Below the pieces are notes generated by a model. The model worked only from the letters and a program-made list of their open reading frames with translations, had not been told where the DNA came from and did not search any database. Below, piece by piece: positions 566 to 20,575 of a DNA stretch of 25,432 nt. The position numbers and the translations under genes were made by a program. How positions within the stretch are numbered: position 1 is the first letter of the stretch; every line of letters starts with the position of its first letter. This DNA is from a virus. The stretch lies in IMG/VR virus record IMGVR_UViG_3300037493_003860, positions 1 to 25,432 of that record, one strand, 5' to 3'.

Positions 566-741
566 TGGGAACGTGGCACATCAAGACGCGGGAAATCCCC
601 GAGGATAAGGACGGCTGCACATGGCAAGCCTACCTCGTTGACGATCCGCGCGGTCCGAAAGGTCGCGGCACAACCTCGCGCGAAGCCATCGCTGATCTGG
701 TGGAATACATCCAGAGCGATGAAGAAGAGAGCGCGCAATGA
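565..741 (+). CDS. Small hypothetical protein, 58 aa
   Basis: The ATG at 565-567 shares its first base with the TGA of the preceding gene, and its own TGA (739-741) overlaps an ATG at 738, so it fits the coupled gene chain on both sides. The product begins MGTWHIKTREIPEDKDGCTW and continues with a DDPRGPKGRGTTSREAIADL segment before an acidic tail. It looks like a small alpha/beta protein: two predicted strands around HIKTRE and TWQAYLV, then a helix from SREAIADLVEYIQ. This strand-strand-helix plan resembles small HicB-like or DUF-type folds, but I cannot assign a family. No signal peptide or membrane segment is visible. Confidence 0.7.
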   Translation: MGTWHIKTREIPEDKDGCTWQAYLVDDPRGPKGRGTTSREAIADLVEYIQSDEEESAQ

Positions 742-782
742 CCCCGCGCAGGCTGGAGCGGATGCGGGTGGAGGATGCGTGA
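738..782 (+). other. 14-codon mini-cistron bridging to the methyltransferase
   Basis: A reading frame MTPRRLERMRVEDA starts with ATG inside the previous stop (ATGA at 738-741) and stops with a TGA that shares its last base with the methyltransferase ATG (780-784). It would carry ribosomes across what is otherwise a 40-base gap and continues the coupling seen at every other junction. It may be a translational coupling or leader peptide, or simply the spacer holding the methyltransferase ribosome-binding site (GGAGG at 770-774). No function is claimed for the peptide. Confidence 0.35.
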
Positions 783-1858
783 TGCGCAAGCTTCGCGTCC
801 TCGATCTTTTCAGCGGCGTCGGCGCGTACTCGCTTGGCCTTGAACGCACAGGCGGCTTTCAGACCGTGGCGTTCTGCGAGCTTGAAGACTACCCGCGCCG
901 CATACTGAGGAAGCACTGGCCCGATGTCAAAATCTACGAAGACGTCCGTGAACTCACCGGCGCCCGACTTGCCGCAGATGGAATTGTTCCCGACTGGATC
1001 GTTGCCGGCTGGCCCTGCCAAGACATCAGCAGTGCGGGTACGGGACATGGCCTGGACGGCGCACGCTCAGGACTATGGACGGAAATCGTGCGACTGGCTC
1101 GCGAGTTGGGAGTTAAAGGGCTCATTCTGGAGAACAGCTCAAACCTCCTTAGCATCAACGGGGGAGCTGACTTCGGAACGGTTCTCGGAGACTTGGCCGC
1201 GCTCGGGTTTGATGCGGAATGGCACTGCTTACCTGCTGCCGCCTTTGACGCACCGCACATCCGTGATCGCCTCTGGGTCGTCGCAACTTCTGCCGACGCC
1301 AACCTGCGCTGCAAACATGATGTCTCCATCAATGCAGAAATGGCCGCTTCACCGCAATCTGTGGCCGACGCCTCACGGGTTCAGCGCGGATGGGAAGAGC
1401 AACGGGCCAAGCGGGAACGAGTTGGGCCGGGCGGTGAACCAGAGACTGTTTCCAACGCCAAGGTCGTCGGACGGAGAAAAAGGAAGCAGGACGGCACAGG
1501 GAGCGGCTCGAGAACTCGAGCGCGGGAAGAATATCGACCTGGGAATGGTGGCTGCACTTTGGCCGACACCGACAGCGTCGGCGGGCGGACAAGACACTGC
1601 GGCGCTAGCGAGGGGCAAGACGCTGAATTTGGCGGGAGCGGTGCAAATCTGGCCGACGCCAACATCGTCGCGCCGATCGGGACTGCAATCGCACGGATCG
1701 AACGCCATACTTGGGAGCCTGAACCCGGACTGGGTCGAGTGGCTACAGGGATTGCCGATAGGGTGGACCGCCTCCGCGCAATCGGAAACCTCAACCCGCC
1801 CATCATCCCGGAAACGATAGGCCGCGCAATTCTCGCAGCACAGGAAGCAGCAGCATGA
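782..1858 (+). CDS. C5 cytosine DNA methyltransferase (Dcm-like)
   Basis: This 358-aa enzyme should transfer a methyl group from S-adenosylmethionine to carbon 5 of cytosine in DNA. The start is ATG 782, preceded by GGAGG at 770-774; the frame is open further upstream, but motif I begins just after this Met. Visible motifs: I, VLDLFSGVGAYSLGLE (residues 7-21); IV, GWPCQDIS with catalytic Cys79; VI, LENSSNLL with Glu117 (usually ENV); VIII, HIRDRLWVVA (159-168; the family usually has QxRxR); and X, LRAIGNLNPPIIPETIGRAI (331-350). Residues 170-310, where the target-recognition domain should lie, are low in complexity and contain five spaced [A/S][D/N][A/T] repeats. Phage C5 enzymes with such a region are known. 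It could protect phage DNA from restriction or alter host methylation. A second long frame overlaps most of the gene. Confidence 0.93.
   Translation: MRKLRVLDLFSGVGAYSLGLERTGGFQTVAFCELEDYPRRILRKHWPDVKIYEDVRELTGARLAADGIVPDWIVAGWPCQDISSAGTGHGLDGARSGLWTEIVRLARELGVKGLILENSSNLLSINGGADFGTVLGDLAALGFDAEWHCLPAAAFDAPHIRDRLWVVATSADANLRCKHDVSINAEMAASPQSVADASRVQRGWEEQRAKRERVGPGGEPETVSNAKVVGRRKRKQDGTGSGSRTRAREEYRPGNGGCTLADTDSVGGRTRHCGASEGQDAEFGGSGANLADANIVAPIGTAIARIERHTWEPEPGLGRVATGIADRVDRLRAIGNLNPPIIPETIGRAILAAQEAAA
924..1820 (+). CDS. Overlapping +1-frame protein nested in the methyltransferase gene
   Basis: A 298-aa frame lies wholly inside the methyltransferase gene, +1 relative to it. GAGGAAG at 906-912 is a possible, somewhat distant ribosome-binding site. 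It looks like protein rather than noise: a segment FSETWPRSGLMRNGTAYLLP (residues 87-106), five regularly spaced [LFI][LFW]PTP motifs at residues 122-126, 146-150, 175-179, 212-216 and 242-246, and a C-terminal SLNPDWVEWLQGLPIGWT (265-282). I recall phage proteins with this pattern (WPTP repeats, then LNPxWVEWLMGxPIGWT), often annotated as hypothetical or methylase-related, so both frames may be conserved. The last motif resembles motif IX of C5 methyltransferases. The function is unknown; a partner or target-recognition role for the methyltransferase is a guess. Confidence 0.55.
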   Translation: MSKSTKTSVNSPAPDLPQMELFPTGSLPAGPAKTSAVRVRDMAWTAHAQDYGRKSCDWLASWELKGSFWRTAQTSLASTGELTSERFSETWPRSGLMRNGTAYLLPPLTHRTSVIASGSSQLLPTPTCAANMMSPSMQKWPLHRNLWPTPHGFSADGKSNGPSGNELGRAVNQRLFPTPRSSDGEKGSRTAQGAARELERGKNIDLGMVAALWPTPTASAGGQDTAALARGKTLNLAGAVQIWPTPTSSRRSGLQSHGSNAILGSLNPDWVEWLQGLPIGWTASAQSETSTRPSSRKR

Positions 1859-2715: not shown

Positions 2716-2808
2716 CTACAGCCGATCAATCACCAGCGCGAACCAGACCAGAAAGCTGAAGCTGGAGATGACCAGAAGCGACATCTTGAGGAACGGCACG
2801 AACCTCAT
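2716..2808 (-). CDS. 30-aa membrane microprotein at the end of the lysis module
   Basis: This short minus-strand gene starts with an ATG that overlaps the stop of the upstream gene as ATGA (plus-strand 2805-2808) and ends with TAG at 2716-2718. The product is MRFVPFLKMSLLVISSFSFL followed by VWFALVIDRL: a short basic N-terminus and one long hydrophobic segment (residues about 10-27) with a charged end, which is a plausible single-span membrane peptide. The coupling and hydrophobicity favour a real gene. It could be a holin accessory, antiholin or envelope-disturbing peptide, judged only from its place next to the spanins and holin-like gene. Confidence 0.55.
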   Translation of the reverse strand: MRFVPFLKMSLLVISSFSFLVWFALVIDRL

Positions 2809-3020
2809 TGCCGCACCCACACGCGGATTACCTTTTCGGGGTACCAGCGCCCCGCCGCCTCAACCAGGCACTGCCCGTCCCGGTAGGTCACACGCAGGCC
2901 GCTATCAGCCCAACGCGCGTCACAGTCCGCAGCATGTCCCGCGACGAACACCCACGCGCCAACAGCCCCGGCGAGCGCTACAGCCGCAGCCGCAGGCATC
3001 ACCGGGGGTAGAGGTCGCAC
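2805..3020 (-). CDS. Small membrane-anchored or exported protein, 71 aa
   Basis: The gene begins either at GTG 3020, whose G is the last base of the upstream TAG, or at ATG 2999, seven codons in; neither has a strong ribosome-binding site. I chose the GTG for its coupling. Residues 8-28 (MPAAAAVALAGAVGAWVFVA) form one hydrophobic segment that acts as a membrane anchor or uncleaved signal. The remaining 40 residues (beginning GHAADCDARWADSGLRVTY) would be periplasmic, with Cys33 and Cys51 able to form a disulphide. The C-terminal GQCLVEAAGRWYPEKVIRVW looks like a small beta module. Similar short proteins are common near phage lysis genes; the role is not known. Confidence 0.7.
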   Translation of the reverse strand: MRPLPPVMPAAAAVALAGAVGAWVFVAGHAADCDARWADSGLRVTYRDGQCLVEAAGRWYPEKVIRVWVRQ

Positions 3021-3217
3021 TACTTCGTCAGTTCTTTGTGGATGATCAGCGCGCTGACAACGCCGAGAACGATAGCCGCGAAGTCCGAGATGCCCGGAAC
3101 TTTCGGCCCGCCCAGCACGGTGTTGATCGCGATGCCAAAGCAGACGGCAACTGCAAAGATGCCGATATGTAGGAACGGCCCGAGCGCGTCTTTCTGTTCT
3201 TTAGTCAGGAATGCCAT
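3020..3217 (-). CDS. Putative holin, 65 aa, two membrane segments
   Basis: The start ATG is preceded by AGGAGAG with good spacing. The 65-residue product has a charged N-terminus (MAFLTKEQKDAL), two hydrophobic segments (about residues 13-35, LGPFLHIGIFAVAVCFGIAI; and 43-60, ISDFAAIVLGVVSALII) separated by a GGPKVPG turn, and a basic tail HKELTK. Size, two spans and a basic C-terminus fit a class II holin, which would open the inner membrane and let the endolysin through. Its neighbours (endolysin and spanins directly upstream) support this. No holin family is certain from sequence, and the other small membrane proteins nearby are alternative candidates. Confidence 0.65.
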   Translation of the reverse strand: MAFLTKEQKDALGPFLHIGIFAVAVCFGIAINTVLGGPKVPGISDFAAIVLGVVSALIIHKELTK

Positions 3218-3226
3218 TTATCTCTC

Positions 3227-3499
3227 CTAGAGTTTACACCCAGCCTCGAGCCATTGCGCCACGTTGGATGTGGCGTAGTCCTTCGCCGCGGTGGGCCAGG
3301 TATCGTATTCAGCGCGGGAAACGGATGCGGGGGTCTGGCCCCGGCAGAACTCGATCAGCAGGCCAACACGCAAATCCTCAACCGGCTTTACCGCTTCCGC
3401 TTTCTCCTCGGAAAAGAACGGAAGCGATGGGGTCTGGCACGCTGTTAGCGTCGGGATAGACAGGGCTAGTATCCCTAGCCGTGATAGCTGCATCCGCAT
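3227..3499 (-). CDS. Outer-membrane lipoprotein spanin (Rz1-like)
   Basis: The 90-aa product starts with a signal peptide (MRMQLSRLGILALSIPTLTA) followed by Cys21 in a lipobox LTAC, so it should be lipid-modified and sorted to the outer membrane. After the Cys comes a Pro-containing stretch (QTPSLPFFSEEKAEAVKP), then a segment with Cys54 and Cys88 that may form a disulphide. The gene begins inside the upstream inner-spanin gene in another frame, overlapping it by 122 bases; this is the overlapping Rz/Rz1 arrangement. Together the two proteins span the periplasm and disrupt the outer membrane in the last step of lysis. It implies a Gram-negative host. Confidence 0.82.
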   Translation of the reverse strand: MRMQLSRLGILALSIPTLTACQTPSLPFFSEEKAEAVKPVEDLRVGLLIEFCRGQTPASVSRAEYDTWPTAAKDYATSNVAQWLEAGCKL

Positions 3500-3716
3500 G
3501 GGTTCTCTCTTCTGTGATGATTTCTGCGCTACGCGTGGTGACAGCTTCCCTGGCCTGCGCCTGCTTCACGGCTGATGCCTGGCGCTCGGCTTTGCGGCCG
3601 GCGTCCTTGAGGTGCCGCTTGACGGCTTCCCAGCCGAGAAGCGCGACAACTGCCCACGCGATGAACCGCGCGATCGGGTTGTCGGTGAAGAATTTGCCTA
3701 TTGCCGCCCACGTCAT
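3378..3716 (-). CDS. Inner-membrane spanin (Rz-like)
   Basis: This 112-aa protein has an N-terminal membrane segment (RFIAWAVVALLGW, residues about 17-29), then a long charged helix (KRHLKDAGRKAERQASAVKQ through the EERTHADAAITARD region, about residues 34-82) that should form a periplasmic coiled coil, and a Pro/Ser/Gly-rich C-terminus. This is the expected plan of an i-spanin. The outer-spanin gene starts within it in a different frame. The start is ATG 3716, with AGGGG a few bases upstream, just after the endolysin stop. The assignment rests on architecture and position, since i-spanins diverge strongly in sequence. Confidence 0.78.
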   Translation of the reverse strand: MTWAAIGKFFTDNPIARFIAWAVVALLGWEAVKRHLKDAGRKAERQASAVKQAQAREAVTTRSAEIITEERTHADAAITARDTSPVYPDANSVPDPIASVLFRGESGSGKAG

Positions 3717-3725
3717 TCCTTGCCC

Positions 3726-4964
3726 CTATTTCAAAAGCGTCGTTGCTTCGACCATGCCCTTGGTCATGACCTTCGTGCCGCGCTTGCGTGTGAGCCAGCC
3801 GATGCCCGCCACGACTGCGGTTGCGACCAGCGCGATGACGACAGGGTCGCGCGAGAGATCAAAAGCAATGGCCCCCACGGCCGTGCCAACGCCAAGACGC
3901 ACGGTCACGATCTGGATCACAGAACCGATGCCAACGATGACCATGCCGACGCCGCGCTGGCTGTCGCTCATGTTCTTTGCGCCCTTGTCGAGGTCGATTT
4001 CCCCGTAAGGCACGGAGCGCACGTCAACCGTCTTCGGCGCGATGATGACGGGCTCAGGCGGGGGCTTCGTCTCAATCTTAGGCGCAAGTGGCGGCGCAGG
4101 CTTAACCGGCGGCGGCGACGGCTGGGGAGCCGGATTTATCGCCACCGCCGGCCCTGCTACCACGGGACCACTCGGCGGCGCAGGAACGGGGGCAGATGCC
4201 AGCGGAGGGGGGCTGGGCTGGGGGGCTTGCTTCTCCGCTGGCTCCGCATCGCCTGGCGCTTCAGCGGCGACAGGCTCAGCTTTGACGGGTTCGGGCTTGA
4301 CCAGCTCCGACCACGATTTCTTGAAAATATGCGAGGTGTCGGGCGGCTTCGATGTGTCCAGCCGCGCACGCATGAGGGTGTCTTCCAGAGACGTGCTTTC
4401 GTTCGTGTCGATCTGCCCGCCTTCGGTCACTGACAGCTTGATGACGCTGATGCTGCAAGCGTTCTCCCACGGCAGATCCGAGAACAGGCAGGCTTCAGCC
4501 AGGCGGCGCCGATACAGGCCCTTGAGCGGCTTGCCTCCCGCCCGGCAGTTGCGCGGAAACTGAAGCAGGGCGCTTCCATACGAACCCGGCGTCATCACCT
4601 TGCCCGCGTCAGTCACGCCGCCATTCAGGCAGGCTTTCAGGCTTTTGGGGATGTACCCTAGATTGAAGGCGAGACTTGCCAGCGCATCAAATTCCCCTTG
4701 CGTGAGCGGCACGGTGATCTGGTCCCGCACGATCTGCGCGTGCTTCGCGACGTCCTCGTCCAGCAGCGCGTCAGCTTCGGCAAGCGTGATGGTCTTGCCG
4801 ACGACTGCGACCGGCCCCGTGCGGCCGTAGCCGATGGTCGGGATGTTGATCGGGTCGAGGTAGCCGACGAGGCTTAGACCCTCGAAATGCCGGATGAGAT
4901 CAACCGCCGCGCGCGACGGATACAGCTCACTCGGCGGCCTGCGGCGGAGAATTTCTATCGCCAT
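3726..4964 (-). CDS. GH24 endolysin (lysozyme) with Pro-rich linker and C-terminal membrane segments
   Basis: The N-terminal ~170 residues are a T4-type glycoside hydrolase family 24 lysozyme, which cuts the MurNAc-GlcNAc bonds of peptidoglycan. The triad spacing of T4 lysozyme (E11-D20-T26) is reproduced exactly as Glu28 (HFEGLSL), Asp37 (GYLDP) and Thr43 (IPTIGYG). FDALASLAFNLG and the RRLAEACLF region also fit the family. Known phage lysozymes are about 150-180 aa; this one is 412. The extra part is a long Pro/Ala-rich linker (about residues 215-320), then two hydrophobic segments near 338-368 and 373-391 ending in RKRGTKVMTKGMVEATTLLK. The C-terminus could anchor the enzyme in the membrane or be a fused holin-like piece. 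The gene overlaps the upstream membrane-protein gene by 38 bases. Confidence 0.88.
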   Translation of the reverse strand: MAIEILRRRPPSELYPSRAAVDLIRHFEGLSLVGYLDPINIPTIGYGRTGPVAVVGKTITLAEADALLDEDVAKHAQIVRDQITVPLTQGEFDALASLAFNLGYIPKSLKACLNGGVTDAGKVMTPGSYGSALLQFPRNCRAGGKPLKGLYRRRLAEACLFSDLPWENACSISVIKLSVTEGGQIDTNESTSLEDTLMRARLDTSKPPDTSHIFKKSWSELVKPEPVKAEPVAAEAPGDAEPAEKQAPQPSPPPLASAPVPAPPSGPVVAGPAVAINPAPQPSPPPVKPAPPLAPKIETKPPPEPVIIAPKTVDVRSVPYGEIDLDKGAKNMSDSQRGVGMVIVGIGSVIQIVTVRLGVGTAVGAIAFDLSRDPVVIALVATAVVAGIGWLTRKRGTKVMTKGMVEATTLLK

Positions 4965-5940
4965 CGTTCTTGTCCTCCGAGAGATCGGCTTTGGTTTCGG
5001 TGCGTGCTTTGCGCATGTCTTCGATCAGGCGGCGGCGCGATGTTGTGCGTCCGCCCTTTGCGCCGTTCTCCTGCGCTTCCTTGCGCTTGCTCATGCCCAT
5101 CTGGACCGCAAGCAAAGCCTGCGCGCCGACAGAGCCGCACGCCTCAAGCAGGATCACCCAGAATAGCGCGAAGATGTCTCTGAACGTCACGCCATCAAAG
5201 CCGGGGAAGTAGCGCGCGGGAGCCTGGAACACCGCAGGCAAGGCCGGATCGCCAATGGCGGCTTCCGTCGCCTGCTGACGTGCGCCGAGACGGTCAGTCT
5301 CTGCGGCCGCAATCTTCGCGTCCTGCTCGTCCAGCTTGGCTTGCGCCTCGGTCTGATAGAGCGCGATATTCTTCTCGAACGTGGACACGTCATCGTTGCG
5401 GCTGTTGCCGTCGTCCAAGACAAGGTTCATCGACTGACGCGCGGCTGCTACCAACTGGTCACGGTCGGCGCGGATCGCCACCTTTTCCTTCTCGGCACGG
5501 GCAATGATCGTGTCAGCGCTTTCCGTCGATGCGCTTTCCGTCTGCGAAATCGCGGCGCCCTTACGATAGTGCCAGTCGTTTCCTTCAGTGACGAAGCCTA
5601 ACGCAGCGATGCCGCACGCAATCAGGCCCATGACCCAGATGAAGCGCAGCGTGCGGCCGGCAGCGGGGTTGATCTTGTTCGTTTTGAGCCAGACAATTGC
5701 GAGGCCCCCGAAGATGACGAACGTGCGGAACACGATGCCCGCAGCCATAAAGCTGGTCTCCATGCCGGGCGGGGCGAGGCTGGAGTAAAACTGGCTGTCC
5801 CATACGTAGAGCGTCAGGCACGCCACCACGACAGCGGCCCAGAGCGCCGAGAACGTCACGAAGGAGACGGTGAACGCGGGAGCGTGGTCCCTGACCCACC
5901 GGCCAGCAGACGCCCACTCCGCTTTCGTGTGGCCTCTCAA
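4927..5940 (-). CDS. Multi-span membrane protein with periplasmic coiled coil, 337 aa
   Basis: The frame begins at TTG 5940, which overlaps the upstream TGA as TTGA and follows AAGGGGTGGGG; no ATG lies close enough to be a better start. There are three hydrophobic segments in the first ~120 residues (FVTFSALWAAVVVACLTLYV; FRTFVIFGGLAIVWL; FIWVMGLIACGIAALGFV). A charged, probably coiled-coil region follows (about 140-225, with EKEKVAIRADRDQLVAAARQ), then another segment (FRDIFALFWVILLEACGS, about 254-271) and a basic cytoplasmic tail. The plan resembles phage and bacterial membrane proteins of the DUF4407 type, but I cannot confirm homology. Being coupled to the endolysin suggests an envelope or lysis-timing role. 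Confidence 0.7.
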   Translation of the reverse strand: MRGHTKAEWASAGRWVRDHAPAFTVSFVTFSALWAAVVVACLTLYVWDSQFYSSLAPPGMETSFMAAGIVFRTFVIFGGLAIVWLKTNKINPAAGRTLRFIWVMGLIACGIAALGFVTEGNDWHYRKGAAISQTESASTESADTIIARAEKEKVAIRADRDQLVAAARQSMNLVLDDGNSRNDDVSTFEKNIALYQTEAQAKLDEQDAKIAAAETDRLGARQQATEAAIGDPALPAVFQAPARYFPGFDGVTFRDIFALFWVILLEACGSVGAQALLAVQMGMSKRKEAQENGAKGGRTTSRRRLIEDMRKARTETKADLSEDKNDGDRNSPPQAAE

Positions 5941-7187: not shown

Positions 7188-7382
7188 ATGAAACGCACAA
7201 GTGCTGAAATCAAGAAATCACGCGGTCGGCCTGCTGTTGGTGCTGGCGAACCCGTGCTGATCAGGATTCACGACCCCCTTTTGTCTGCGATAGATGACTG
7301 GTGTGCGGAGCAGCGCCCCATCCCAGGACGCCCAGAAGCAATCCGCAGATTGGTAGCTCAAGCCCTTGGCCTCAAGGAGTAG
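7188..7382 (+). CDS. Ribbon-helix-helix transcriptional regulator, 64 aa
   Basis: The C-terminal ~45 residues fit the Arc/MetJ/CopG fold: a strand EPVLIRIHD (21-29), helix A LLSAIDDWCAEQ (31-42), a turn PIPGRP and helix B EAIRRLVAQALGL (50-62). The RPEAIRRLVAQAL stretch is typical of CopG-like proteins. The N-terminal 20 residues are basic (KRTSAEIKKSRGRP) and may contact the DNA backbone. In this fold dimers place a paired beta-strand in the DNA major groove. A palindrome and an inverted repeat lie just upstream, which suits self-repression. The gene is followed after 4 bases by an FkbM-type methyltransferase, whose ribosome-binding site AAGGAG lies inside this gene's end. The two plus-strand genes stand alone among minus-strand late genes. 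Confidence 0.85.
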   Translation: MKRTSAEIKKSRGRPAVGAGEPVLIRIHDPLLSAIDDWCAEQRPIPGRPEAIRRLVAQALGLKE

Positions 7383-7386
7383 ACAC

Positions 7387-8172
7387 ATGTCCGAAGTGAT
7401 GGAAACGAACTGGCAAGAGCAGGCCGAGTTTCATGCCTTCTCTGTCCGCCAGATGATCAAGCAGCGCGATCGGCTGCACACTCTCCTGTCCGCCCTTGGT
7501 CAGTTCGGCACGTTCCCGAACGGGACCACGATGGCAGAGATTGCCGATGCAGTTCCGCACTCCACCTCTCAGTTCTTTCAGGACGTCTTCGCCCTGATCC
7601 ACAATCAGGGAAAGCACGGCGGATACGCGGTCGAATTCGGAGCATGTGATGGGCTAACCATGTCCAACACTGTGATGCTTGAGCGCGAGTTCGGCTGGAC
7701 GTGCCTCCTTGCCGAACCCTCACGTCACTGGCAGCGCGATCTTCAAACCAACCGCACCGCCAAGATTGAGACCCGCTGCGTCGCTCCCAAGAGCGGGGAC
7801 TACCTCACCTTCTCCGAAGCTGAACACGATCATACGCAGAGCACGACCGCTGCACACATGCCCGCCGCAAGCGTTGGAGGCCGATCCTACAACGTCGAGA
7901 CGATCTCTCTGTTCGACATGCTGCGACACCACAAAGCGCCGCGGATAATCGACTATCTCAGCTGCGACACTGAGGGATCAGAGCACGCGATCCTTGAAGC
8001 GTTTTTCACTGAGAATGCCAAAGCGGCAGAGCCCTACCGGATCAACTTCCTCACCGTGGAGCACCATGGGGACGCGATTGAAGGGCCGATGAAGGCGATG
8101 CTTGAGCGTGCTGGCCTCAAGCAAGTGTTCCGGGCCGCCAGCGGCCATGATGGGTTCTATGTCCCGGCCTAG
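7387..8172 (+). CDS. FkbM-family SAM-dependent methyltransferase
   Basis: The start is ATG 7387, seven bases after AAGGAG (7374-7379); the frame runs a little further upstream but without a ribosome-binding site. The 261-aa product has the FkbM-type Rossmann fold: SAM-binding motif GGYAVEFGACDGLTMSNT (residues 78-95), the post-I segment GWTCLLAEPSRHW (103-115), and IDYLSCDTEGSEHAIL (188-203) with the acidic DxEG site. Residues 62-70 (QFFQDVFAL) match a stretch often seen before motif I in phage homologues. FkbM enzymes O-methylate small molecules, sugars or glycans. In phages they may modify host surface polysaccharide or a nucleotide/glycan decoration; the substrate here is unknown. With its RHH partner it resembles a moron cassette. 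Its TAG is fused with the stop of the convergent gene in one CTAG. Confidence 0.87.
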   Translation: MSEVMETNWQEQAEFHAFSVRQMIKQRDRLHTLLSALGQFGTFPNGTTMAEIADAVPHSTSQFFQDVFALIHNQGKHGGYAVEFGACDGLTMSNTVMLEREFGWTCLLAEPSRHWQRDLQTNRTAKIETRCVAPKSGDYLTFSEAEHDHTQSTTAAHMPAASVGGRSYNVETISLFDMLRHHKAPRIIDYLSCDTEGSEHAILEAFFTENAKAAEPYRINFLTVEHHGDAIEGPMKAMLERAGLKQVFRAASGHDGFYVPA

Positions 8173-10393: not shown

Positions 10394-13336
10394 TTAGCGG
10401 GCTAGGGGCTTGTCGTCTTTGGGAAGCGTTGCGCCTGCGGACAGAACGCCGAGGCCCATCACTCCACTCATCCCAGCAAGGAGCTTGGAGCTTTGTTCTT
10501 GGGAGGGGTCGAACTTGGCGTTGACGGATCGAATGTCTTTCGGATCGAACACGACAACGACAGCGGCAGGTTTACGCGGATTTCCCTGCGGCCCGATATT
10601 GTCCATGATGCCGGGGTCACGAACGCCCCGAAGGATAACGCCGGGCGCTCCGTTCTCTTTGGCCTCTTTGATCACACGCTGCATGAACTCAGGGTCATAG
10701 CCGCCGCCGCCCATGTCCCACGTTTCGTAGTCTTTCAGATTTCTCGCGTAGACTGGATAGACCGCAGAGCCCTTGCTGTAGTAACGACCAACACCGTCAC
10801 CCATATCTACGCCGCGCGCATCCTTCTCAATGATTTTTGGCGCGTCTCGCTGTACGTATGCGCCGGGGAGATAGCTGTCAGCAACTGCGGGCGAGTTCGT
10901 CAGGAAGATTGCATCTTCGCCAAGCTGTAGGTCGGTCCTGATTTTCTTGGTGTCGAATTCGTCAAAGTCGCTGCTTGTGGCGTGAAACAGTTTGTAGCGC
11001 GTATCAAAGCCTTGCTGTTTCGCCCGCTCCATCCTGCTTCCCTCATCCATAGGGAGATCGCGAGAGCCTCCGAAGCCCGCCTGATCTGGCCTGCGTGGGG
11101 CCAGTGCGTTTGTCGGCGGTCCCTGCGGCGTCGGGGGCGGCTCCACGTTGAGGGGGTTGCGCGGGGGGCGGTTGCCGTAGATGCGGGCGAGGTTCTCGTC
11201 AGTCGCGCCGCCATAAAGAATGTCGGCCATGAGGTCGCGTTGGGCTTTAGTGTAGGAGCCGCTACGGGTCAGCGCCGCAAGGACCGTTGCGAGCGGGTTT
11301 GTTTTGAACGCCAGCGCGCTTTGCGCAATTTCGGCAGCGTTCTGAATGCCGCCCGCGCCGCCCATAGCTGCCTGCGATGTCGCAGAACCGATGTTAGGAT
11401 TGCGGCGCTGCGCCCCCTTGATGATGACCTGATCCGCGCGAATGCGGGCAACCAGGTTGTCAGCAACGTCCTTGTCAAACACAGCGCCGAGGATTTCGCG
11501 CATCCGCTCGCTTGCGATGCCGTCAATCCCGCGCGCCTTCTCGATATCCAGCGCCAGCTTTTCTACGGCGCCCATTTGCAGGGCCGTGAGCGGCTTGCCT
11601 TTCAGCCCTGAAGCCAGCGAGCGGACACGCTCAACCAGCATGTTACCGCCTGCGACTTCCTTGCCTTTTTCGCGAGCCTGACGCATCCGGGGAGCGTCGG
11701 CTCCTTCACGCACCGCAGCGTATTCCGGCATCAGCGCGTCGAGTTCTTTGACAACCGCCTCGCGCGCCCTCAACAGGGCTTCGCTTGGCCTGCTGCCGCC
11801 TGAGAATGCCTTGTCGATTGGCCGATCCAGCGCACGCTTGACCAAGTCCCATGTGCGGGCATTGCTGGGGGCCTGCCCTGCGGTCGTGGCAAGGCTTTCC
11901 GCTTCATTGATAGCAGCGCGAACATACTTCCCGACGATCCTGTCATCCGCGAGTTGCATGAGCCGCTCGGAGTTGACACCAGCGTGCTTGGAAAACAGCG
12001 CTTCGTAAGCTGGGCTGATCTCTTCGGACGCTTGCTTGATGGCTGCATCAAGATCAGTTGCAACGCTTGCGGGGTTGATATTTGTGGTTGCCTGCACATC
12101 CGAGAACAAGCGTCCGGTGCGCGTGCGAAACACGTCGTCTGCCTGCTGTATCGCCAATTCAGGGGCTTTGCCTGGAAGGCGCGAGAGGCCAACGCCAAGG
12201 TTCTGCGCTTGCTGCGTGGCGTCTGCCAGAGACACAGGCTTGTCGCCATACTGCGCAGTAAGGCTTGCTTTGACTTCATCAGCAGTCTTGCCTAGCGGCG
12301 CCAGCGCGTTCTGGAGAACGTTGGACACCACGCGCTCATCAAACCCTTTTGGGCGGAATGGCTTTGCCGCAGCACGCCAGCCACGGCCGGCAAGGCGCGG
12401 CGCAATCATCCCGGCAATCGCGCCAGTGCCAGGATTGATGATGTCCGGCCCGCCGCCTGACCCATCGCCTTCCGCCGCAAGAGCATCGCCTGCGCTACCC
12501 GCAAACGCTCCCACGCCACCGCCAACGATCCTGTCCGCATTATTCCGCAGGAAACTGCTCGGCTTGGGCTCTGCGGGGGCGCTGAAGGGCGCGGGCTGCG
12601 GCTGGGGGGCTGCGGCTTGCGCAACGGGCTTGCCCACAGGCGGGGCTCTGGTGGCCTGCATGGCTGCGCGTTCCAGATCAGCCACGTTCAGCGCAAGCGT
12701 GTTTCTCGGCACGGTCAGGCCGCGCGCTGTCATTGAGCCGGGAAGCATCTGAAGCGCTGCAAAGCTGCCCTCGATCGACGCCTGCTGCGCGCCTTGCGCG
12801 GCTTTGCCCATGTCGCCTTCAATGAGGCCAGCGCCAGCGTCACGCAGGCCCAGATAGGCACGGCCCGCCTCGTCCACGGGGCTGATGAAGTCCACAGCCT
12901 GCGTTGCGCCGAGAAGCGGGTCGGCCTGCAACGTGCGCGCCCAGCCTTCAAGGCCCCCGCCTGTCAGGCCCCTGACAGGAGCTTCAAGGCCGCGCGCCAC
13001 GTCCGCAATCAGGCTGTTCTGGTTGCCCGTGTCAGCCATGCGCGGCTGTTGGGCCTGCGGGCGGGCATACCCCGACTTTGCGAGCGGGTCTTGCACATAG
13101 CCCATCGCAGCCATGCGCTGCGGATCGGCAGGCTTGGCGTCGAACGCCGCGAAGCCGCCAGGAATGGCCGCAGCGGCTTCCTCAATGATGGCGTCAGTCT
13201 CGGAGCGGAGGGACGGGGCGGCAGGGGCGGCAGGCGCCGCCTGTCCCATCTGCTGAAGACGCAGACGCGCCTTCGCCTTGGCGATTGCCTGCCGCTGCTG
13301 CGGCGTCATCTGTGCGGGTTGGGTCTGATCGTTCAT
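10394..13336 (-). CDS. Large internal virion protein with ADP-ribosyltransferase-like C-terminal domain
   Basis: This 980-aa protein is Ala/Gln/Pro-rich at the N-terminus, mostly helical in the middle (about 330-720) and has small hydrophobic Gly/Ala stretches (about 270-300 and near the C-terminus, LLAGMSGVMGLGVLSAGATL). It sits where podoviruses encode internal proteins ejected with the DNA. Residues about 781-945 resemble the ADP-ribosyltransferase domain found in phage polyvalent proteins: RYKLFHATSSDFDEFD with His785, AIFLTNSPAVADSYL with Tyr822, ENGAPGVILRG, and VVVFDPKDIRSVNAKFDP. The usual catalytic Glu just before the VVFD strand is not obvious (PAAVVVVFDP), so activity is uncertain. 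If active it could modify a host protein at infection. The gene is joined to the upstream gene by ATGA. Confidence 0.75.
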   Translation of the reverse strand: MNDQTQPAQMTPQQRQAIAKAKARLRLQQMGQAAPAAPAAPSLRSETDAIIEEAAAAIPGGFAAFDAKPADPQRMAAMGYVQDPLAKSGYARPQAQQPRMADTGNQNSLIADVARGLEAPVRGLTGGGLEGWARTLQADPLLGATQAVDFISPVDEAGRAYLGLRDAGAGLIEGDMGKAAQGAQQASIEGSFAALQMLPGSMTARGLTVPRNTLALNVADLERAAMQATRAPPVGKPVAQAAAPQPQPAPFSAPAEPKPSSFLRNNADRIVGGGVGAFAGSAGDALAAEGDGSGGGPDIINPGTGAIAGMIAPRLAGRGWRAAAKPFRPKGFDERVVSNVLQNALAPLGKTADEVKASLTAQYGDKPVSLADATQQAQNLGVGLSRLPGKAPELAIQQADDVFRTRTGRLFSDVQATTNINPASVATDLDAAIKQASEEISPAYEALFSKHAGVNSERLMQLADDRIVGKYVRAAINEAESLATTAGQAPSNARTWDLVKRALDRPIDKAFSGGSRPSEALLRAREAVVKELDALMPEYAAVREGADAPRMRQAREKGKEVAGGNMLVERVRSLASGLKGKPLTALQMGAVEKLALDIEKARGIDGIASERMREILGAVFDKDVADNLVARIRADQVIIKGAQRRNPNIGSATSQAAMGGAGGIQNAAEIAQSALAFKTNPLATVLAALTRSGSYTKAQRDLMADILYGGATDENLARIYGNRPPRNPLNVEPPPTPQGPPTNALAPRRPDQAGFGGSRDLPMDEGSRMERAKQQGFDTRYKLFHATSSDFDEFDTKKIRTDLQLGEDAIFLTNSPAVADSYLPGAYVQRDAPKIIEKDARGVDMGDGVGRYYSKGSAVYPVYARNLKDYETWDMGGGGYDPEFMQRVIKEAKENGAPGVILRGVRDPGIMDNIGPQGNPRKPAAVVVVFDPKDIRSVNAKFDPSQEQSSKLLAGMSGVMGLGVLSAGATLPKDDKPLAR

Positions 13337-19465: not shown

Positions 19466-20575
19466 TCACGAATCCGCGGCGGCCGCGAAAAACGCCGAAA
19501 CGATACCCTGCTGGACGCCGTTGAAGCAGAGCTTCTTGACGCCGAGCAGTTCTTCAATCGCGACACCAGGACGGAACGAGTAGTCTTTCGTCATGTCCGT
19601 GCGCGGGGTCGGTTCCTGACCCCATGCAATGCCGACAGCCTGAGCACCGCACAGGAAGACCGGGCGGACGTCAGCCGAAGACGCGCCGATACCCGTGAAG
19701 TTGTACGTGCCGAGCGCGGACTGGTCGTCGATCTCAGGGACTTCGCGATGGATGATCCCATCATACAGGAGGTCGCCGTCTTGGAAGATCGGGTTGTCGT
19801 CCATGCCGTTGCCTTCGCGCGAGCGAGCTTCGCGGTTGGCTTGGGTCATCGTGGTGTCAGCTTTCAGATCGCGGAACGTCCGCGAGCCGTGGAACGCCAC
19901 ATAATATTCGCGACCATCGCCCGTGCGATACGGGCGGATGTGCGGGTCAGCGTTCTTCGCAATGCGCTTCGCCAGCGACATCGAAGCGACCGTGCATTTG
20001 TCGTTCGTGGTGTCGATGTTGCCGACAGCGGTTGCCCACGTTGCCGAGTAGTTTGAGCGCAGGGCGCCGAACAGCACGCGGTCAGTGTTCGCCGCGTTGA
20101 AGGCGTTCCGGTTTGCTGCCGAGCTGTCAGCCATCAAAACGACAGTGTCGCCAGTCGTGACAAACGACAGCATTGCCTTGATGACGTCGTCACGCAGCTT
20201 CTCCGCTTCCCATGTCCGCAGCATGTCCTTGGCCGCGCCGAAAAGGTCCAGCTCGGTCTTGTAGCTGGTGGACTTCGGCACGCGCACCGCGTTGCGGCGC
20301 CAGTCGAGGGAGATGTTGCAGTTGTAGTTGCCGAGTTCTTCTTCGTTGCCGTCGAGGCTCGTGGAGCCGGTGACGCCGGTTCCCTTCAGGCGCGTGATCA
20401 GCGGGATGTTGATCGACTTCCCCGCTTCTTCCGTCATCTCGTACTTGCTGATGATGATCGAGTTGTTGCCGCGACCCATGTAGGGCTTGAAGCCCGAGTT
20501 GCGGACGTACTCTGCGAAATAGTTCGTGACCCACTTCTGACGTTCAGAAGCGGATGCAAGGGCGACTTCGGCCAT
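19466..20575 (-). CDS. Major capsid protein (N4-gp56 / DUF4043-like)
   Basis: This 369-aa protein starts at ATG 20575 after AAAGGA, three bases after the scaffold stop. It has features I associate with the N4-gp56 (DUF4043) coat family: an N-terminal arm (KWVTNYFAEYVRNSGFKPYM), the segment EAGKSINIPLITRLKGTGVT followed by GSTSLDGNEEELGNYN (about 51-87), the RRNAVRVPKSTSYKTELDLF spine region, and a C-terminal DYSFRPGVAIEELLGVKKLC. The family has the HK97 fold and forms the icosahedral shell. N4-type coat proteins are not the P22 coat, so the head and tail modules here seem to come from different lineages. Confidence 0.85.
   Translation of the reverse strand: MAEVALASASERQKWVTNYFAEYVRNSGFKPYMGRGNNSIIISKYEMTEEAGKSINIPLITRLKGTGVTGSTSLDGNEEELGNYNCNISLDWRRNAVRVPKSTSYKTELDLFGAAKDMLRTWEAEKLRDDVIKAMLSFVTTGDTVVLMADSSAANRNAFNAANTDRVLFGALRSNYSATWATAVGNIDTTNDKCTVASMSLAKRIAKNADPHIRPYRTGDGREYYVAFHGSRTFRDLKADTTMTQANREARSREGNGMDDNPIFQDGDLLYDGIIHREVPEIDDQSALGTYNFTGIGASSADVRPVFLCGAQAVGIAWGQEPTPRTDMTKDYSFRPGVAIEELLGVKKLCFNGVQQGIVSAFFAAAADS

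Follow-up and report, generated by a model that had tools for sequence, protein, structure and literature searches.

The window, that is, the whole stretch of 25,432 nucleotides analysed here, carries a GH24 gene of an uncultured freshwater phage. This gene, which probably encodes an endolysin, lies on the reverse strand (3726-4964), starts with ATG and is preceded by a strong Shine-Dalgarno sequence, CGGAGG. Its features, and those of the genes around it, are as follows.

4927..5940, reverse strand: predicted four-span membrane protein, whose gene precedes the endolysin gene and shares 38 nt with its start
4974..4978, reverse strand: Shine-Dalgarno sequence GGAGG (within CGGAGG) of the endolysin gene
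3726..4964, reverse strand: endolysin gene, 412 aa, with a GH24 domain, a Pro-rich linker and a C-terminal membrane tail
4365..4964, reverse strand: residues 1-200, GH24 catalytic domain with its adjunct (Pfam, alignment, AlphaFold2)
4881-4883, 4854-4856 and 4836-4838, reverse strand: codons of the catalytic triad E28, D37 and T43, respectively
4008..4364, reverse strand: residues 201-319, disordered Pro/Ala-rich linker, the joint between catalytic and tail alleles (composition, allele comparison, AlphaFold2)
3729..4007, reverse strand: residues 320-412, predicted C-terminal membrane tail of type A with a basic C-terminus (free-energy scan, selection, charge)
3888..3956, reverse strand: hydrophobic segment 1, residues 337-359, marginal (dG +1.11)
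3786..3842, reverse strand: hydrophobic segment 2, residues 375-393 (dG -0.06), with a basic stretch after it
3378..3716, reverse strand: i-spanin, Rz-like, with an N-terminal transmembrane segment at residues 15-34 (weak match to phrog_5151, E 1.3e-3)
3227..3499, reverse strand: o-spanin candidate, Rz1-like, with a lipobox-like LTAC, overlapping the i-spanin gene
3020..3217, reverse strand: 65-aa two-span protein (residues 15-35 and 45-63), holin candidate
2805..3020, reverse strand: one-span protein of 71 aa at the end of the cassette, often conserved

A prophage relative of the phage was sought in genome contigs and none was found; GcrA was encountered in one relative, below cut-off only.

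The N-terminal part of the protein looks like an active-type GH24 muramidase, its catalytic activity being predicted from the residues present. The Pfam family Phage_lysozyme (PF00959) matches residues 26-157 with an E-value of 4.6e-27 (95.3 bits against a curated cut-off of 22.3), and a PHROGs search with the same ORF leads to endolysin families. The Glu28/Asp37/Thr43 spacing of T4 lysozyme reported by the first-pass annotation can be read directly from the translation: E28, D37 and T43 are intact, are arranged as E-8x-D-5x-T as in T4-type lysozymes, and align with 42 other GH24 domains. The triad is likewise intact in most of the clade to which the endolysin belongs, with Asp replaced by Cys in two members (L056 and L058). 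The Pfam domain is followed by a conserved adjunct of about 40 residues (163-200, LPWENAC..LEDTLMRA). AlphaFold2 models residues 1-205, including the adjunct, with a mean pLDDT mostly above 90 when provided with a more diverse alignment (an earlier alignment gave a pLDDT of 47), and the structures matched are those of GH24 endolysins and of the SpmX muramidase domain (6h9d).

The rest of the protein agrees with the initial description of a Pro/Ala linker leading into two hydrophobic segments. The linker (~119 residues) consists of 29% Pro and 14% Ala and is disordered in the AlphaFold2 model. Scanning the whole endolysin for transmembrane free energy, on a scale with parameters taken from the literature, revealed two segments only, a strong one at residues 375-393 with basic residues behind it and a marginal one at 337-359, and no N-terminal transmembrane, SAR or signal segment; the topology check proposed beforehand thus places both predicted spans at the C-terminus. 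Hydropathy is only moderately beyond chance and does not serve as our main argument, because two such segments also occurred in 6 of 200 composition-preserving shuffles (3%). What decides that the tail is real is its conservation and purifying selection. Linker and tail occur in every complete relative from viral metagenomes (~33, including near duplicates), and the dN/dS of the tail (type A, 0.15; type B, the commonest, 0.09) is close to that of the GH24 domain (0.11-0.15) and lower than that of the linker (0.30-0.34). The tail helices of the AlphaFold2 model (residues 336-356 and 374-411) lie apart from the lysozyme fold, albeit with low confidence for 374-411 and for the tail overall. Family searches with the tail yielded nothing useful in Pfam or PHROGs.

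The endolysin gene sits in a lysis cassette. Directly downstream come the two spanin genes, which show the same order and overlap as P2-type spanins; the o-spanin candidate has no family match in Pfam or PHROGs, and neither has the holin candidate behind it. The readable cassettes of relatives contain, at the position of the holin candidate, a separate small membrane ORF of one of several types, mostly with two spans, and it is 3020..3217 or these equivalents that may act as the holin. The upstream membrane protein exists as two alleles, ~34% identical to each other, that are freely shuffled among the relatives. Exactly one GH24 ORF, always of the long form, was found per contig in 13 relatives, represented by contig fragments of 24-46 kb in which other hydrolase families were partly searched. 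The cassette context and the single GH24 gene together support the role of the protein as an endolysin. In two relatives, an ORF of ~260 aa on the reverse strand is inserted between the endolysin and i-spanin genes (L004:1368-2156(-) and L006:6161-6943(-)); by eye it resembles an HNH-type homing endonuclease.

Comparison of the relatives reveals three tail types: A, shared by this phage and a minority of its relatives, B (SRRFWGLLLVVAGRVWML...), present in most of them, and C, restricted to two. An unrelated origin of the three was considered and rejected: tails B and C are related (0 of 300 shuffles score as high), and A and B are probably distant relatives, with again 0 of 300 shuffles scoring as high and an hhalign E-value of 0.024 at a probability of only 2%. 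Matches between the tail and the small downstream two-span ORFs gave weak scores only, over many comparisons. Several A- and B-type phages are alike in their DNA identity to the catalytic domain of this phage (~81-84%), whereas the A and B tails share 45-53% at the DNA level and are not alignable beyond background. In up to 33 cassettes, from sampled phages that are not independent, the normalised mutual information between the tail type and the type of the downstream i-spanin is 1.0, compared with 0.29 for the GH24 allele of the very same gene and 0.05 for the upstream membrane gene. The tail thus follows the i-spanin and is nearly independent of its own catalytic domain, and the recombination joint is therefore the Pro-rich linker. 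Judged from these sequences, the unit exchanged comprises the tail and the spanin genes, mostly together with the holin candidate. As these genes are adjacent or overlapping, the association of tail and i-spanin may be simple linkage; what is informative is that the tail is decoupled from the catalytic domain encoded together with it. As the sequences indicate, the swapping of the tail together with the i-spanin between related phages is what is new here.

Endolysins with a C-terminal transmembrane domain (TMD) have been published before, namely LysAP of the Acidovorax phage AP1, whose TMD is needed for localisation and lysis (PMC8879335), M4Lys of the phage BSPM4, which needs its C-terminal membrane domain for lysis (PMC7143992), and Enc34 ORF39, whose C-terminal domain has two helices (PMC8943055). 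The predicted layout of the protein studied here, with a muralytic N-terminal domain, C-terminal transmembrane segments and no N-terminal signal, is that of these enzymes. LysAP (OM049504, locus L081) shares with it the GH24 motif E-8x-D-5x-T, the lack of an N-terminal signal and a C-terminal transmembrane segment followed by basic residues, but differs in its length of 227 aa, in a short spacer in place of the Pro-rich linker, in having one clear span (198-219) and in a holin gene located upstream in its cassette. Homology of the two tails was rejected, as their score does not exceed that of shuffles. M4Lys and Enc34 ORF39 similarly combine an N-terminal muralytic domain and a C-terminal membrane domain within a lysis cassette (that of Enc34 includes holin and spanin genes), and of each only the full-length form is toxic; unlike our protein, they possess a PHA02564 catalytic domain, which has no sequence relation to GH24, measure 230-259 aa and lack a long Pro-rich linker. 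SAR endolysins such as P1 Lyz and phage 21 R resemble it in pairing a GH24 domain with membrane-linked control of lysis, but their membrane segment is N-terminal, and the absence of such a segment rules out a SAR endolysin here. P1 Lyz has Cys in place of the catalytic Asp, as do L056 and L058.

The survey of GH24 endolysins suggested by the first-pass annotation did find C-terminal spans, in one of 30 Burkholderiales GH24 proteins, in four of the best 28 Pseudomonadota loci (one span each) and in six of 36 viral GH24 proteins that are more distantly related (a single family, again with one span). Among the nearest GH24 endolysins of cultured phages, eight have a length of 145-185 aa and no such extension. 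C-terminal-TMD endolysins are hence a known but uncommon kind, and the notion of an unusual lysis design holds only in part: both such endolysins and the SpmX layout, to which the first-pass annotation makes no reference, had already been published. As far as searched, a phage GH24 enzyme with a Pro-rich linker of ~120 residues followed by a two-span tail is new.

We find it probable that a C-terminal hairpin tethers the endolysin to the inner membrane and that the enzyme stays, most likely, in the cytoplasm until a separate holin opens the membrane. The enzyme would lack an N-terminal export signal, and the tail would most likely form a two-span hairpin with both ends cytoplasmic, keeping the enzyme waiting inside. 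The separate holin, in this view the small membrane protein encoded at 3020-3217 or an equivalent of it, would then open the membrane, the Pro-rich arm of ~120 residues would let the still-tethered enzyme reach the peptidoglycan, and the Rz/Rz1-type spanins would complete the outer-membrane step. The topology is suggested by the net charge after the second span, which is basic in all tail types (+5, +3 and +5): these residues place the C-terminus inside and, given two spans, the enzyme therefore inside as well. SpmX, whose lysozyme domain is cytoplasmic and sits on a Pro-rich arm with two C-terminal spans, serves as an independent precedent (PMC5347347; PMC8849385). The tethered endolysin envisaged in the first-pass annotation is thus well supported by the C-terminal tail, the lack of an N-terminal SAR or signal segment and the lysis cassette, its membrane location being a prediction.

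One span is marginal in each tail type (the first in A, dG +1.1; the second in B, +2.4; the first in C, +2.2), and if it failed to insert, the topology would invert and the enzyme would require export, which has been claimed for LysAP. On that alternative the tail would be a C-terminal signal anchor, in which only the strong span inserts (N-out/C-in), and the exported enzyme would be retained in the periplasm until its release. Such a mechanism has been proposed for LysAP, whose lysis is delayed by azide, taken by its authors as a sign of Sec-dependent export, and speculated upon for Enc34; it would also suit tail types A and C, where the last span alone is strong and is followed by the basic C-terminus. 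In type B, however, the strong span is the first one and basic residues precede it, so that one topology for all three types needs both spans inserted, and a hairpin is therefore favoured. Moreover, no known route exports an N-terminal domain of ~330 residues by a C-terminal signal (argued in PMC8943055), and a Sec inhibitor did not block lysis by M4Lys (PMC7143992). We regard the signal anchor as rather unlikely.

The first-pass annotation also offered a single-chain endolysin-holin, a tail that oligomerises, opens the membrane and frees its own enzyme. The two-span tail does show the N-in/C-in charge pattern of class II holins (with one span marginal), and overexpressed full-length M4Lys alone lyses E. 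coli (PMC7143992). This idea fared poorly. The separate small membrane ORF after the spanins in the readable relatives disfavours the tail as the only holin, and no free-standing homologue of the tail, which would have betrayed a fusion, was found in viral contigs or phage records. An internal start that could release the tail was rejected, too: the nearly invariant Met332 has no conserved ribosome site and its codon is ATT in one relative (L003). All in all, an endolysin-holin seems very unlikely. A virion-borne peptidoglycan hydrolase used at entry would fit the location of the gene after the structural genes and on the same strand, but is highly improbable given the spanin genes directly downstream, the lack of a second GH24 gene in the relatives that could act as the endolysin, and a membrane tail unexpected for a virion enzyme.

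A different kind of relative is SpmX, a Caulobacter polarity protein composed of a GH24 domain, a Pro-rich intermediate domain and two C-terminal transmembrane segments, whose lysozyme domain binds cytoplasmic proteins (PMC5347347). The domain order, including the disordered state of the Pro-rich middle, is identical to that of our endolysin, which together with the structural match to 6h9d and a match of the NCBIfam model LysLocSpmX (NF051871) to the GH24 part could point to a phage-borne SpmX-like factor acting on host polarity or morphology, not on lysis. We find this hardly credible. The model match, confined to residues 17-103, scores 49.8 bits where the cut-off is 700, whereas one of the SpmX-type proteins found in our genome survey scores 736 bits over its full length. 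A tree built from 43 GH24 domains separates the SpmX types (a starred group with support 99/98) from the clade of this endolysin (likewise starred, 100/99), which falls on the phage side. SpmX of Caulobacterales is a cellular gene with an acidic linker, has mostly lost the catalytic Asp that is kept here, and showed no activity in vitro detectable by its authors; our gene lies within a lysis cassette as the sole GH24 gene. Likeness of the tail to SpmX tails is not established either, as one of 48 pairs scored beyond 300 shuffles, which we do not accept as homology. Judging by the model score, the tree placement and the retained Asp, membership in SpmX is ruled out, and the endolysin is not SpmX. 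By eye, two of the SpmX types (L223 and L228) both adjoin an MgtE-like gene.

Forcing both two-span groups into one clade is rejected at the borderline (p-AU 0.047); together with the separate clades this tends to favour separate origins of the shared layout. SpmX has reportedly been described by Randich et al. in 2019 as a domesticated phage lysin. One could go further and imagine that these phages carry an active lysin version of the SpmX layout, cytoplasm-facing, tethered, perhaps self-assembling and released by a holin, that SpmX inherited its whole three-part design from such a lysin, and that the tail with its partner spanin and holin makes up one inner-membrane unit; we deem this scenario distinctly unlikely. 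In a bacterial genome, a GH24 gene with one C-terminal span (L250:2947-3825(+)) adjoins flagellar genes that by eye look FlgI-like and rod-binding-like, and is perhaps another domesticated lysozyme.

C-terminally anchored endolysins have been tested in few phages. The present family offers natural variants recombined by the phages themselves (three tail types, several catalytic alleles and linkers of varied length), with which the membrane side of the enzyme and the need for a match between tail and spanin can be addressed. SpmX, a polarity factor whose core is a lysozyme domain of phage type, shares the layout, so that the origin of the design can be tested. The main interest lies in the natural exchange of tails and in the combination of an SpmX-like layout with a phage enzyme that seems active.

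Several other features of the window deserve a mention. Its major capsid protein (19466-20575(-)) is 49% identical to that of the Pseudanabaena phage Pam1, whose lysozyme gene is short and tail-less. A 980-aa protein (10394-13336(-)) sits where a DNA-ejection protein would be and matches, at residues 782-940 and below cut-off (E 5e-5), ART-PolyVal, the ADP-ribosyltransferase of polyvalent proteins. Two genes occupy the strand opposite to the structural genes, one for a C-5 cytosine DNA methylase (638-1858(+)) and one for an FkbM-type methyltransferase (7366-8172(+)), the latter flanked by the lysis region and the tail-type genes. Finally, positions 1-211, at the contig end, consist of 5.7 copies of a 36-bp GC-rich tandem repeat, in which several frames are open, one of them coding for Pro/Gly-rich repeats.
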